A stretch of DNA of 64,000 nt, taken from the NCBI RefSeq assembly GCF_009847015.1, contig NZ_WVEM01000001.1:744001-808000 (forward strand), read 5' to 3'. The stretch is from Sunxiuqinia indica (GTDB lineage Bacteria > Bacteroidota > Bacteroidia > Bacteroidales > Prolixibacteraceae). This document shows positions 24,777 through 31,694 of this stretch, in pieces. The notes under the pieces were generated by a model. That model was not told the origin of the DNA. It saw nothing but the letters and a program-made list of their open reading frames with translations, and did no database searches. Within the stretch, counting starts at the first letter, position 1. Each line of letters begins with the position of its first letter. A program made the position numbers and the translations under genes.

Positions 24777-27383
24777 TTAATTATTGTCAAACCAGCTTCG
24801 TTTCTTGTCTATTTTCAAATCTTTAAGCATGGCTGATGAGGCATTAATTGTGAAACTGTAACTTTTGCGGCGACCAAATGGCACAAAATTGAAGGCCATA
24901 TTCCAACAATGTAACCGACGATTTATATTGAAGGTGGTAAAAGAAAACTCACCAGCTTGAATATCAAAGTTTGTGGATAGCGACATATTCCATTCGCGCG
25001 TTAATTTCACCCGGCCACTAAAGTTTAAACTCTGGTTGACTTGTGCATCATGATAATTACTTCTTTTTGAGTAGCTAAAGCTATAATTAAACCGAAAGTC
25101 CCATGGAATATCAAAATCATAGTATTCGATGCTCCCATCCGGATACATGATTTGCTCACCAGGTTCTTCTCCTTCTTCCGCATTCGCTTCTTCTTTCTGT
25201 TTCGATTTAAATGACATCCCGAAGGAAAGGTTTGCATTGGTCAGTCGGCCTAACTTGGCTAATCCCGAAGCTTCATTCCACATAAACTGATTAATTCGGG
25301 TTCCCTTTTCATCAGTATTGTAGGGGTCAACTGTCCCGCCAAAGTTCAAGCTTACACCTTTAATTGTTGTTCGCCCATTTATTCGAATGGTACTTAGATT
25401 TAATGAATCAGCGATAAAATTGTACGATCCGCTAAATCCCAGATTATCGATAATCTTTACTTTCTCAAATTTCTCTTCGTTCGATGTAGTATCGTTTTTA
25501 GCTGCCATTTTTGCTTCGAGGTTGTTGGTAAGTCCGAAGTTAATCGCTGCACTCTCTCCTCTCCCGGCCGAACCAAAAATAGCACCTTTAAAACGATTGT
25601 AATAAATTTGATTTCCCTCGTGATCCATATACGAGTCATAAAAATCGTATTTGGGGTCACCAAAATCAGGAGTATAACTAAAACTAACCGAAGGCGACAT
25701 TTTATGCCTGATGGCTTTCATTCGGGAATTGGGATTCTTCATCAAATACATCCCGTAAATATTTGTTTGCGAACTCAAGCTAAATGAATAGTTGTAATTT
25801 CGGCGAAAATGATAGATGGTATCTTCCCAAACTGTTCCTTCCTGAGCGATATTGTCGTAGGCATAATTTTGGGTAATATAATTTGTATACCAACGCTCAG
25901 AATAACTAACACTTGGACTTACATTGACATACTTAAATAGGTTGAAATTCGGCAAGCTGATTGGGATGGAGTGTTTCCATCCATTTTGCCAATCGCGTAT
26001 AATCGACTGATTCAGCAATTCATCTTCTTTTGCGGTTATGGAGTTTTTTATATTACCGGTGTAGCTAAAACCAATTTTCTCGTACCACTTTGGAGCCCCA
26101 ACACGATCTTTCTGTCGAAACGGATAGATTTTCGCCATGGAAAAGGTTAGCTCCGGAAAACTTAAGGAAATAGTAGTATCTCGTGAGTTTTGTGAGTGCC
26201 TGAAACTGGCTGACATATTAAATGGAGAGTTTTCCCATTTTTTAGAATATGAAATACTCGACGATTTAGTGGTTTGCAAATAGCTTTGCACATCATATGA
26301 GTTCTGCTTGTCGTAACTTGTTGTAGACAGGTTTACGCTGGCCGAGAATGATTGATATGGATTGGCCTTACTGTCCTGCGAATGCGACCACCTAACTGAA
26401 AACCCCGGCGAACGGCTAAAATCAGGTAAGTCAGGATCACTGTAACGGTTTACATTATACCTGAAATCAAAGTTTCCTGAAAATTTATACCGTTTTTTAT
26501 AGTTGGTATGCACATTGGCCCCCCACGAACCTTTAGAGTAAATATCCCCTTTCATCGTTAAATCGAAATAAGGACTTGCTGCCCAATAATAACCTCCTTC
26601 GCGCAAAAAGAATCCTCTGCTTTGTTCTTCACCATAGGTAGGGACTATGATACCAGAAGAATAACTGGGTGAGTTTGGGAAGAACCCAAATGGGATCATT
26701 GGGAAATAAATTGGAAAATCTTCTAACACTAAATATGCCGGGCCGGTAATAATTTTCTTATTCGAAATAACCTTTGCTCGGGTCATTCTTAAATAAAAAT
26801 GCGGATGGTCTGCATCACAGGTCGTATACTTTCCTTTTTTCAGAATAAAAGAGTTGGCATCAATTTTTTTGGTTCGCTCACTATGAACATATCCGTCGCC
26901 CTGCTGCGTTTTCACTTCAGTGATTATTCCCTTTTGAGTTTCAAAGTTATACCGCAGCGTTTTACTCTCAAACTCCTCTTCCCCATCTTTAAATACCGGC
27001 GAACCTTGAACAACCTCTGCCGAATCGGGAACACCTTCGGCATACACCTCTTTCGTTTCCAAATCAAGTTCAATGTAATCGGCTTTCAGTTCAATCGTTT
27101 GGTAAGTCACCATCGCCTCTTTGTATAAATATACTTTTTGGCCATCCAGCGAAATCACAATAGAGTCCAACGCATTATAATTTATAGGAGCCTCAAGAAC
27201 CGTTGTTTTTGCAGTATCCCGCTTCGCTATTGAATCCTGGGTAGCCGACATTCTGGATGACAAAATAGAATCAGGCTTTAACTCAGGCTGAGGAATAGAA
27301 GAAAGTTCCGTGTCGGGCAATTCCTGTGCATAAGTATTAACACAGAAAAAAAACAAAATATATGTGAAGATTATTTTCGTCAA
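24777..27383 (-). CDS. lptD: LPS-assembly outer-membrane protein, LptD-like
   Basis: An 868-residue protein with signal peptide (residues 1-19, ending NTYAQ), an OstA-like N-terminal domain (IELDLETKEVYAEGVPDS near residues 103-120) and a long C-terminal beta-barrel rich in alternating aromatic strands. The GPAYLVLEDFPIYFPMIPFG segment is typical of Bacteroidota LptD homologues. It inserts LPS into the outer leaflet. The start codon is TTG at 27383: an in-frame stop lies a few codons upstream with no ATG between, and the signal peptide begins right there. A -7 box lies at 27421-27428. Confidence 0.85.
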   Translation of the reverse strand: MTKIIFTYILFFFCVNTYAQELPDTELSSIPQPELKPDSILSSRMSATQDSIAKRDTAKTTVLEAPINYNALDSIVISLDGQKVYLYKEAMVTYQTIELKADYIELDLETKEVYAEGVPDSAEVVQGSPVFKDGEEEFESKTLRYNFETQKGIITEVKTQQGDGYVHSERTKKIDANSFILKKGKYTTCDADHPHFYLRMTRAKVISNKKIITGPAYLVLEDFPIYFPMIPFGFFPNSPSYSSGIIVPTYGEEQSRGFFLREGGYYWAASPYFDLTMKGDIYSKGSWGANVHTNYKKRYKFSGNFDFRYNVNRYSDPDLPDFSRSPGFSVRWSHSQDSKANPYQSFSASVNLSTTSYDKQNSYDVQSYLQTTKSSSISYSKKWENSPFNMSASFRHSQNSRDTTISLSFPELTFSMAKIYPFRQKDRVGAPKWYEKIGFSYTGNIKNSITAKEDELLNQSIIRDWQNGWKHSIPISLPNFNLFKYVNVSPSVSYSERWYTNYITQNYAYDNIAQEGTVWEDTIYHFRRNYNYSFSLSSQTNIYGMYLMKNPNSRMKAIRHKMSPSVSFSYTPDFGDPKYDFYDSYMDHEGNQIYYNRFKGAIFGSAGRGESAAINFGLTNNLEAKMAAKNDTTSNEEKFEKVKIIDNLGFSGSYNFIADSLNLSTIRINGRTTIKGVSLNFGGTVDPYNTDEKGTRINQFMWNEASGLAKLGRLTNANLSFGMSFKSKQKEEANAEEGEEPGEQIMYPDGSIEYYDFDIPWDFRFNYSFSYSKRSNYHDAQVNQSLNFSGRVKLTREWNMSLSTNFDIQAGEFSFTTFNINRRLHCWNMAFNFVPFGRRKSYSFTINASSAMLKDLKIDKKRSWFDNN

Positions 27384-27504: not shown

Positions 27505-28653
27505 ATGTATATGAACATTAGCCGAAAGTTGTTTATTGTATTTCTGTGTGTATTTTTTGAATTATTGAATCCTGCACGAGCAAAAAGCGCGCCAGATCAT
27601 CCGTTTACAGTAATTATTGATCCCGGTCATGGAGGGAAAGATCCGGGTGCAGTATATAAAGGTATCCGGGAAAAAGACATTGTTTTAAACATTGGAATAA
27701 AACTCGGGAACTACCTGAAAGAAAAATTACCCGGTATTCGTGTAATTTACACCAGAAACACCGATGTGTTTGTTCCGTTACATCAGCGTGCTGTTATTGC
27801 AAATAGTAACAAGGCCGACCTTTTTGTTTCCTTACACGCTAACTATTGCGGAACTCCTTCGATCACCGGAACCGAAACTTTTGTTTTGGGTCTTCACCGA
27901 TCAGAAGAAAATCTGGAGGTAGCCAAAAAAGAAAACTCTGTAATTTTGATGGAGGAAGATTATTCTTCAACCTACCAGGGGTTTGATCCCAATTCACCCG
28001 AATCATACATCATGTTTGAAATGGTACAGGATGAACACCTCGATCAAAGCATCAACCTGGCCGCGGCAATCCAAAATCAGTTTAAGAATAGAGCCGGACG
28101 TCATGACCGTGGCGTAAAACAAGCAGGCTTTCTGGTTTTACGGCGAACAAGTATGCCAAGCGTATTGATTGAAGCCGGTTTTTTAAGCAATCGTTATGAA
28201 GCAAACTACATGAACAGTGATGAAGGGCAGACCTATCTGGCTTCGGCTATATTTAGAGCAATACGCGATTATAAAAACACGGTTGATCATAAAAGTGAAT
28301 ACCAATTAGGTTCATCAATACCTGAAAGTTTGAAGCCATCAGCAGAAACCTCCGAAAAAGCACTTTCTCAGCAAAAAGAGGAACACAAGAACGACTTTTA
28401 CTTTAGTGTTCAACTAGCTGCCACCAACAAGGCTATTGAGCCAACGGCAACAAATTTTAAAGGCCTTGAAAAAGTTGAGCGAAAGAAAATTAAATCCACA
28501 TTCAAGTTTTTCTACGGAAAAAGCACCTCATTGGAAGAGATACAATCGCTTAAACAAAAAATAATAACAAAATATCCTGACGCGTTTATTGTTGCTTTTG
28601 AAAACGATGAGCCCATCTCGATCAAAAAAGCTTTGAGAAAAATAAAACCATAG
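27505..28653 (+). CDS. N-acetylmuramoyl-L-alanine amidase with C-terminal SPOR-like domain
   Basis: Zinc amidase (Amidase_3, PF01520) that cleaves peptide stems from glycan strands in the periplasm. After a signal peptide come VIIDPGHGGKDPGA (first Zn His), GIREKDIVLNIG (Glu), FVSLHANYCG (second His) and LIEAGFLSNRYEANYM (catalytic Glu). A linker follows, then the last 87 residues (28390-28650), which resemble a SPOR-type module and recur at the end of the next gene product. I chose ATG 27505 because a signal peptide begins there; 27511 is equally possible. The gene diverges from lptD and precedes the MCE gene by 69 bases. Confidence 0.9.
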   Translation: MYMNISRKLFIVFLCVFFELLNPARAKSAPDHPFTVIIDPGHGGKDPGAVYKGIREKDIVLNIGIKLGNYLKEKLPGIRVIYTRNTDVFVPLHQRAVIANSNKADLFVSLHANYCGTPSITGTETFVLGLHRSEENLEVAKKENSVILMEEDYSSTYQGFDPNSPESYIMFEMVQDEHLDQSINLAAAIQNQFKNRAGRHDRGVKQAGFLVLRRTSMPSVLIEAGFLSNRYEANYMNSDEGQTYLASAIFRAIRDYKNTVDHKSEYQLGSSIPESLKPSAETSEKALSQQKEEHKNDFYFSVQLAATNKAIEPTATNFKGLEKVERKKIKSTFKFFYGKSTSLEEIQSLKQKIITKYPDAFIVAFENDEPISIKKALRKIKP

Positions 28654-28722
28654 TTCTGATCTCATTGTTTGTTTAGTATCAGAATGCTTATTAATATTGT
28701 ATAAAACAAGCTGAAAACAATT

Positions 28723-29988
28723 ATGAAACTGTCTAAATACGCAAAACTGGGAATTCTTATCGTCTTTAGTTTTGCCATCTTTATTTGGGGAATGAACTAT
28801 TTGAAAGGAATCGATTTCTTCAAACAAAATACAAGCTACTATGTCGTTTATGAGAGGATTGAAGGACTGCTCGAATCAAGTGCTGTTATGATTAATGGCT
28901 ACCAAGTCGGTCAGGTTAAAACAATTGACTTCTCAGACAGTAATGATGGTAGTTTGGTCGTTAATTTCTCGCTGGAAGGAGATTTTGAAATCCCGGAAGG
29001 CTCCATCGCTAGAATTGTTTCTTCGGATCTTATGGGCACCAAATCGATCGTATTGCAAATCAATCCGTCCAATGTATACTATCAGGAAGGTGACACGATA
29101 CCGGGAAGTATTGAAGAAGGTTTGAAAGAGCAAGTAAGTATGCAGGTACTCCCTTTAAAAAATAAAGCGGAGCAGCTTTTAGCATCGCTTGATTCGGCTA
29201 TTACCGTTGTTACATACGTTTTTAACGAAGAAGCACGGAAAAACCTTTCTGAAAGCTTTGCACGTATTAATCAAACTATCCTAAACCTTGAGTCAGTATC
29301 AGCCGATATTAGCGAACTACTCGTTACCGAGAAGACTAATTTAAAAGGGATTATTCAAAACATGAACGAAATTACTTCAACCCTTAACGAGAATTCTGAT
29401 GACTTTACAAACATCGTAGGTAATTTTTCATCTATAAGCGACAGTTTAGCGGCTGTAAATATCGCCGGTATGGTTTCTGACCTACAAATGTCAGTACAAG
29501 GAATTAACGCATTGTTGGCTAAAATTGAAAGCGGAGAAGGCACTGCAGGTAAACTTTTAGGAGACGAACAGTTATACGATAATCTGGCTAATATGAGCCA
29601 AAGCCTGGATTTCTTATTGAAAGATATTCGGAACAATCCCAAACGCTACGTTCATTTTTCTGCATTCGACCTTGGAAAAGATGTTTATATCTCTCCTCAA
29701 AAGGAAAAGAATAATACCAGTCAAAATGAATATACTTTCAAGGTACATCTTATTTCAAGCCCATCAAGATTATCGAAAGACAATACCATGTTTAGCGATT
29801 TCGACCAAGTCGAAGAAGTTGAAATTTCAGGAGGATATAGCTATTTAACTGGCGAAACACCTGACATCGCAAACATTATGGAAATTCACACTACTGCTAA
29901 AGCTGTTTTTCCTGATGCAAGTATAATCGCTTTTAAAAATGGGCGAAAAGTACGATTAGAAAAGGCTTTAAGGAAATTAGGAAATTAG
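28723..29988 (+). CDS. MCE/MlaD-family lipid-transport protein with SPOR-like C-terminus
   Basis: A 421-residue membrane-anchored periplasmic protein. An N-terminal hydrophobic anchor (about residues 8-24) precedes one MCE domain (about 38-120, with GLLESSAVMINGYQVGQV and DLMGTKSIVLQ). A long helical, coiled-coil-like region follows (about 130-320). MlaD-type proteins carry phospholipids between inner and outer membrane; the partner ATPase and permease are not adjacent here. Residues 335-421 align without gaps to the last 87 residues of the upstream amidase, which I regard as an added cell-wall-binding-like module. Confidence 0.88.
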   Translation: MKLSKYAKLGILIVFSFAIFIWGMNYLKGIDFFKQNTSYYVVYERIEGLLESSAVMINGYQVGQVKTIDFSDSNDGSLVVNFSLEGDFEIPEGSIARIVSSDLMGTKSIVLQINPSNVYYQEGDTIPGSIEEGLKEQVSMQVLPLKNKAEQLLASLDSAITVVTYVFNEEARKNLSESFARINQTILNLESVSADISELLVTEKTNLKGIIQNMNEITSTLNENSDDFTNIVGNFSSISDSLAAVNIAGMVSDLQMSVQGINALLAKIESGEGTAGKLLGDEQLYDNLANMSQSLDFLLKDIRNNPKRYVHFSAFDLGKDVYISPQKEKNNTSQNEYTFKVHLISSPSRLSKDNTMFSDFDQVEEVEISGGYSYLTGETPDIANIMEIHTTAKAVFPDASIIAFKNGRKVRLEKALRKLGN

Positions 29989-30263
29989 CATCCGAATTGT
30001 TCTAAAAAAATATTGAAATACTCAAGTCCCTCTAAATACAACACTTCCAAAAGAATCACATTTTAAACGCCTGATAATCTGATTGTTGTAAAGCATAAAA
30101 AATTAATATTTTTTAACTGCTTGACTAGTAAACAGATTGTGTTCTTTTCTTAAAAGTCAAGCAATTTTGCATTTTTTTAATACTTTTTTTTTCACAAAAT
30201 TTGTTTTCGGGAATTCAAATAGGGAAAAAATTTGTCGAACATATATTAATCCTGCTGTTCAAA
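29989..30263. promoter_or_regulatory. dnaA upstream region with inverted repeat
   Basis: The 275-base region is very AT-rich. It contains a perfect 9-bp inverted repeat TGCTTGACT (30118-30126) and AGTCAAGCA (30155-30163). A promoter-like pair lies between and over the right arm: TTG at 30137-30139, 22 bases, CAATTTTG at 30162-30169 (one mismatch). I found no DnaA-box cluster (TTATCCACA), so this is probably not the origin itself. Confidence 0.45.
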
Positions 30264-31694
30264 ATGAGTAACAATCATCTTGCTGTATGGAATCGTTGTC
30301 TGTCTGTTATTAAAGATAATGTTCCAGCAATTAGTTTTAAAACGTGGTTTGAGCCAATCGTTCCAGTAAAGATCAACAATCAAGTGTTGACGATTCAAGT
30401 TCCAAGTCCATTCTTTTATGAATACTTGGAAGAGCAATACATTGACCTGCTTCGGAAGACATTGCGTAAAGAAGTTGGAAACGAAGCGAAATTGGAATAT
30501 GTTGTTGTTATGGGAAATAACCAGAACAATACTCAACCATACACCGTCAAGTATCCAACAAACAACAATAGTAAAATTCAGAATAAACCACTCAATGTAC
30601 CATTAAGAACAGAGGGGAAATCATCAATTAAAAATCCGTTTATCATTCCTGGAATCCAAAAGCTTCAGGTTGATCCTCAATTAAAAGCGGATAACACGTT
30701 TGAGAATTTTGTCGAAGGAGAATGTAATCGATTAGCACGTAGTGCAGGCTATGCTGTATCGCAAAATCCGGGAGGAACGGCTTTTAATCCGCTAATGATT
30801 TACGGTAATTCAGGATTAGGAAAAACACACCTTGCCCACGCAATTGGTATTGAGGTAAAAGAACAGTTTCCTGAAAAAATTGTCTTGTACGTAAATGCCA
30901 ACAAGTTTCAAACACAATTCACCGAAGCCATTCGGAATAACAACCGAAACGACTTCCTTCATTTTTACCAAATGATTGATGTATTGATTTTAGATGACGT
31001 ACATGAATTTGCGGGTAAAGAAAAAACACAGGAAACATTTTTCCACATTTTCAATCATCTTCATCAAAGCGGAAAACAGCTTATACTGACGTCAGACAAG
31101 CCACCAATTGAGCTTAAAGGCATGGAGCAAAGACTGTTATCCCGATTCAAATGGGGATTAACTGCAGATTTGCAGATTCCTGATTTTGAAACCAGAATGG
31201 AGATTTTGAAAAGGAAAACCTACAAAGATGGTATTGAAATCAGTGACGAGGTTTTAGAATATATTGCTTCGCACATTGGCAATAACGTTCGCGAGTTGGA
31301 GGGGGCGCTGGTTTCATTGTTAGCTCAGTCTACATTGAATCGTAAAGAAGTAACGATTGAACTAGCCAGCGACATGGTCAACAAACTGGTAAAAAGCTCA
31401 AAACGCGAATTATCAATCGACTATATCTCAAAGGTGGTTTGTGACTACTTCAGTATGCCGACAGATTCACTTCAGGCACGCACCCGTAAACGGGAGATTG
31501 TTCAAGCCAGGCAGCTGGCCATGTATTTCTCAAAAAGCCTGACAAAATCATCACTGGCCTCCATAGGATCTCAAATAGGAAATAAAGATCACGCCACTGT
31601 ATTACATGCTTGTAAAACGGTGAACAACCTCAAGGATACTGACAAAAACTTTAAGGTCTTTGTTGATGAAATAGAAAAGAAATTAAAGATGTAA
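30264..31694 (+). CDS. dnaA: Chromosomal replication initiator protein DnaA
   Basis: AAA+ initiator that binds DnaA boxes at oriC and opens DNA. The start at ATG 30264 gives 476 residues beginning MSNNHLAVWNRCL; an upstream frame start at 30201 is less likely. Domain I (about 1-85) is followed by a variable linker. The AAA+ domain has Walker A YGNSGLGKTHLAHA and Walker B VLILDDVHEF. The C-terminal domain IV carries the DnaA signature KDHATVLHACKTV near the end. A terminator follows at 31700. Confidence 0.98.
   Translation: MSNNHLAVWNRCLSVIKDNVPAISFKTWFEPIVPVKINNQVLTIQVPSPFFYEYLEEQYIDLLRKTLRKEVGNEAKLEYVVVMGNNQNNTQPYTVKYPTNNNSKIQNKPLNVPLRTEGKSSIKNPFIIPGIQKLQVDPQLKADNTFENFVEGECNRLARSAGYAVSQNPGGTAFNPLMIYGNSGLGKTHLAHAIGIEVKEQFPEKIVLYVNANKFQTQFTEAIRNNNRNDFLHFYQMIDVLILDDVHEFAGKEKTQETFFHIFNHLHQSGKQLILTSDKPPIELKGMEQRLLSRFKWGLTADLQIPDFETRMEILKRKTYKDGIEISDEVLEYIASHIGNNVRELEGALVSLLAQSTLNRKEVTIELASDMVNKLVKSSKRELSIDYISKVVCDYFSMPTDSLQARTRKREIVQARQLAMYFSKSLTKSSLASIGSQIGNKDHATVLHACKTVNNLKDTDKNFKVFVDEIEKKLKM

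Follow-up and report, generated by a model that had tools for sequence, protein, structure and literature searches.

SPOR domains (PF05036), which are found in CwlC, RlpA, FtsN and DamX, contact glycan through a glutamine on the first strand (Q270 in RlpA, Q251 in FtsN) and through a basic patch (K42 and K47 in CwlC) (PMC6895207). In Veillonella parvula, the transenvelope MlaD is an MCE protein of the inner membrane in which a long helical arm is combined with an outer-membrane beta-barrel as the C-terminal module (PMC10665443). This barrel is absent from the long MlaD proteins of the FCB group, and the tips of such barrel-less elongated proteins may multimerise (PMC10665443). At that end of the protein, a module stemming from a cell-wall-binding domain suggests an alternative way of placing the lipid conduit. 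It touches two open questions, namely, how phospholipids pass across the periplasm beyond the peptidoglycan, and how the layers of the envelope are kept in step at division. In the literature searched, we found no description of a SPOR domain combined with an MlaD/MCE domain, and the architecture described here appears undescribed in that literature, which is a weaker statement than calling it unknown.

The window, i.e., the whole stretch of 64,000 nucleotides that we analysed, has Sunxiuqinia (Prolixibacteraceae) as its closest named relatives, and harbors two neighbouring genes on the forward strand. The first (27511-28653, starting at ATG 27511 or 27505, a GTG at 27364 being unlikely) encodes an N-acetylmuramoyl-L-alanine amidase with a signal-peptide-like N-terminus, a catalytic domain matching Pfam Amidase_3 (residues 34-252, 1.6e-55), a linker and a C-terminal tail (28390-28650) that resembles SPOR. 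The second (28723-29988) encodes a protein of 421 aa with a hydrophobic N-terminus read as a transmembrane helix, a single MlaD (MCE) domain (residues 37-111, 28831-29055; Pfam 2.1e-12), a proline-free stretch of 161 residues (residues 145-305, 29155-29637), and a tail that is probably SPOR-derived (29725-29985). By comparison with the elongated MlaD proteins of PMC10665443, the proline-free stretch would form a long alpha-helical arm. The pair lies between a large divergent gene with the look of an LptD-type outer-membrane protein (24777-27383, reverse strand) and a downstream DnaA-like gene (30201-31694, forward strand), both according to our reading of the sequence only.

The MCE protein shares with type I MCE proteins (MlaD, PF02470) the N-terminal transmembrane helix, the single MlaD domain and the presence of an orphan MlaE-MlaF pair in the genome. 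However, it adds the putative helical arm and the SPOR-derived domain, and its gene lies beside an amidase gene rather than beside MlaE and MlaF. With the Veillonella protein it shares the predicted inner-membrane location, the long arm and a C-terminal module, but this module is probably SPOR-derived instead of a barrel. We found no MlaE gene within the window. The genome has three of them, two in complete MlaE-MlaF-MCE operons (G000:C35, L166; G000:C5, L167) and one in the orphan MlaE-MlaF pair (G000:C12:17172-17801, L168), which has no adjoining MCE gene and is likely the partner of the window MCE protein.

An earlier note on this DNA had pointed out that the last 87 residues of the two proteins align without a gap and with 23 identities. 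Both tails indeed end exactly at their stop codons, and we reproduced the count, which corresponds to 26% identity. Permuting the residues in 200,000 trials gave a mean of 5.8 identities and a maximum of 20, and the ungapped BLOSUM62 score of 115 compares with a null of -70 +/- 19, all other registers within +/-10 scoring negative. The similarity is significant separately in the first 57 and in the last 30 residues, and BLASTP of the whole amidase against the whole MCE protein recovers the same alignment with an E-value of 5e-11. When the ten tails from five Sunxiuqinia genomes are put together, the alignment is still gap-free and has 13 invariant columns. A profile seeded from these five genomes captures 101/101 amidase tails and 55/55 MCE tails in the loci that we retrieved by genome search across the class Bacteroidia, and all of the former and 54 of the latter score higher than any of the controls (about 3,000 shuffled or reversed sequences), so that the resemblance stands above background in a profile search as well. 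Although the two tails are only 26% identical, chance and the convergence of low-complexity sequence are refuted as origins of their likeness by the BLASTP, permutation and profile tests, with 156 tails captured by a single profile, and we give them practically no credence. As judged by sequence comparison, the amidase tail and the MCE tail are shown to share a common ancestry.

The earlier note had also described the amidase tail as a SPOR-type module. Neither window tail matches Pfam SPOR directly in a Pfam scan. When the tails of relatives are scanned singly, 32 out of 68 amidase tails (best 2.7e-7) and 8 out of 39 MCE tails (best 2.8e-6) match PF05036, and each non-SPOR Pfam family is matched by at most two amidase tails and at most six MCE tails. 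In one MlaD protein (L102), the SPOR match exceeds Pfam's own cut-off. Using hhalign against SPOR domains from the same clade, we obtained 96.7% (E 3.8e-10) for the amidase tails and 95% for all MCE tails together, compared with at most 3.7% for 60 column-shuffled amidase alignments. The MCE tails of the window's family taken alone reach 72% to SPOR and 99.9% to the amidase tails; their assignment runs via the amidase tails. Among PDB profiles, the best match of the amidase tails is the SPOR domain of CwlC (1x60), in full register and over nearly the whole length (E 0.13), and querying the PDB with a single SPOR domain from Bacteroidia returned no useful match.

Structure models of the two tails, built from ten sequences (the window and four Sunxiuqinia loci), are both of low confidence (pLDDT 60 for the amidase tail and 69 for the MCE tail) and both have a SPOR-like order of strands and helix, namely, strand, short turn, strand, strand, helix, strand, short strand and helix. 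This modelled order fits a SPOR domain in which the first helix is reduced and a further helix is added at the C-terminus. In a Foldseek search, the amidase model (pLDDT 60) matched CwlC 1x60 with TM-scores of 0.52/0.58 at rank 9 (E 0.18), and CwlC had the highest probability among the matches listed (best 50). The best matches of the low-confidence MCE model in a PDB fold search are generic ferredoxin-like folds.

The tails resemble known SPOR domains in the modelled order of strands and helix, in the profile match, in the strand-1 glutamine and basic strand-3 residue of the amidase tails, in their C-terminal position behind a linker, and, like the SPOR domain of CwlC, in their attachment to an amidase of the cell wall. 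They differ from them in the short loop or turn modelled in place of the first helix, in the extra C-terminal helix (KALRK region), and, in the MCE tails of the window's family, in lacking the glutamine and the basic residue. Going by profile and alignment, we regard both tails as members of one family, which is a divergent SPOR domain. The description of the amidase tail as SPOR-type holds up, on the Pfam matches of its relatives, the hhalign comparison, and the profile and Foldseek matches to CwlC; the relationship noticed earlier is real and non-trivial, and the domain was correctly named.

The tail is nearly universal on the amidase side, being present in 101 of 102 amidase ORFs; in the exception (L094), the domain is encoded by a separate ORF that follows directly. 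On the MCE side it occurs patchily within one Bacteroidia order, and the length of the MCE protein past the MCE core is bimodal (0-50 or 76-150 residues). Outside this order, the MCE frames in our class-wide sample (149 genomes) are about 310-390 aa long, with matches ending near residue 350, whereas inside the order about 30 MCE matches, among those listed, lie in frames of at least 400 aa. Many Bacteroidia MCE proteins have no tail, so MCE function in general does not depend on it. The earlier note had raised the possibilities that tailed MCE proteins are restricted to one clade and always stand next to an Amidase_3 gene. Neither is the case: the distribution is patchy, and an amidase gene lies directly upstream of 51 of the 55 tailed MCE genes, those without it being at L097, L100, L111 and L172. 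An amidase or a tail-bearing ORF is likewise directly upstream in 54 of the 65 scorable untailed loci, giving 105 out of 120 in total. A suspected amidase-MCE fusion in genome G047 (a frame of 773 aa, the single longer one seen outside the order) resolved into two separate ORFs.

We mapped the glycan-contacting residues onto the tails through the alignment with CwlC, which places the glutamine at tail position 8 and K47 at position 39. In the window amidase, position 8 is Gln (28411-28413), aligned with the corresponding glutamine of CwlC 1x60 and equivalent to RlpA Q270 and FtsN Q251, and position 39 is Lys (28504-28506), aligned with the basic-patch residue K47 of CwlC (PMC6895207). In the window MCE tail, these positions are occupied by His (29746-29748) and Ser (29839-29841), respectively. 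The same division runs through the collection: the glutamine is kept in 101/101 and the strand-3 Lys/Arg in 99/101 amidase tails, compared with 2/26 (17 having His) and 0/26 in the MCE tails of the window's family. The MCE tails of other families are intermediate, with Gln in 16/29 and Lys/Arg in 14/29, and some of those within the order keep both. The median net charge is +4 for the amidase tails and -1 for the window-family MCE tails, and it is +2 and -4, respectively, for the two window tails. At the level of these residues, the signature for glycan binding is shown to be retained in the amidase tails and lost in the MCE tails of the window's family. What the earlier note proposed about denuded glycan hence agrees with the amidase and with part of the related MCE proteins. 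It is not borne out for the window MCE copy, in which Gln is replaced by His, the basic residue by Ser, and the net charge is negative, the residue losses being family-wide.

Loss of the signature has not released the MCE tail from constraint. It is 70-77% identical to its counterparts in four Sunxiuqinia congeners, versus 53-62% for the amidase tail, and pN is far below pS in this within-genus comparison. Because of these two observations, the MCE tail is shown, as far as codon comparison goes, to be under purifying selection despite the lost glycan signature.

The earlier note had suggested a duplication of the module between the adjacent genes. The comparison supports the idea that one copy derives from the other, but not a recent or local event, as the two window tails are identical at 32% of third codon positions versus 29% expected by chance, and the copies therefore separated long ago. 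Most likely, the MCE tail came from the amidase tail, since the latter is near-universal across the class and has retained the SPOR signature. The tail trees, based on 87 columns, are compatible with one or several origins of the MCE tails, both a single clade of all MCE tails (p-AU 0.75) and a clade uniting the amidase and MCE tails of the window's family (p-AU 0.69) being acceptable. In the tree of the MCE core, the tail state needs at least 14 changes, three or more of them required by well-supported branches, with one or two rows perhaps mis-scored (L058 is tailed, its core match having run into the tail).

We consider it more probable than not that the MCE protein of the window is an MlaD-type protein of elongated build, which is positioned at the peptidoglycan by a SPOR-derived module at its distal end, with a changed ligand specificity in the window's family. 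In this scheme, the amidase tail would guide the enzyme to glycan stripped of its peptides (denuded glycan), in line with the role of SPOR domains in other systems, and the MCE protein would be anchored in the inner membrane, probably as a hexamer with the orphan MlaE-MlaF pair. By analogy with the Veillonella MlaD, the helical arm would bring the SPOR-derived domains towards the peptidoglycan and the outer membrane, where they would hold the lipid conduit in place, or position it, against the wall. Positioning would probably occur through binding of denuded glycan in MCE families keeping Gln and Lys/Arg, and for the window's family a change of ligand is probable, to another cell-wall feature or an envelope protein.

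A different role is conceivable for a domain that has lost its glycan signature and is yet under purifying selection, namely, that of a protein-protein interaction or oligomer-capping module that no longer meets the peptidoglycan; it might, for instance, dock to a partner in the outer membrane or seal the hexamer at its tip. The possible multimerisation of barrel-less elongated MlaD tips (PMC10665443) would agree with this role. However, we identified no partner, and related MCE tails retain the SPOR signature, so that we hold it to be unlikely. Slightly less likely again is that the MCE tail is a fully functional SPOR domain binding denuded glycan and linking lipid transport to the glycan made by the adjacent amidase. 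The SPOR ancestry of the tail, the adjacency of an amidase in 51/55 tailed loci, the Gln and Lys/Arg retained by some MCE tails of other families, and the hydrogen-bonding residues (His, Asn or Gln) at the Gln position in 21/26 window-family tails are all in line with such binding. On the other hand, the glutamine and the basic patch are reported to make the glycan contacts (PMC6895207), and in the window's family 24/26 MCE tails have lost the former and 26/26 the basic residue of strand 3, and the net charge of these tails is lower.

Returning to the positioning module with a changed ligand, we propose a broader scheme more tentatively, as possible rather than probable: in one Bacteroidia order, an elongated MCE conduit may have anciently acquired its distal SPOR-derived tip from the neighbouring amidase, and by docking of this tip at the cell wall or septum, phospholipid transport may be physically coupled to the remodelling of peptidoglycan, with a new ligand of the tip in the Prolixibacteraceae.

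Further copies of the domain lie in other contexts. Two loci (L133:750-1550 in G291 and L118:1-660 in G236) encode an additional short MCE protein, which lacks the full helical arm and whose SPOR-like tail keeps Gln and Lys, just upstream of an ordinary untailed MCE gene; at L133, it is placed between the amidase and this untailed gene. The tandem tails in G527 and G595 (L186, L187) belong not to a tailed MCE protein but to two amidases in tandem, both ending in a SPOR-like tail and both encoded upstream of an MCE gene truncated by the end of the locus. Lastly, a TPR protein in the same genome as the window (G000:C33:183808-184068, L185) carries a further copy of the SPOR-like domain at its C-terminus.
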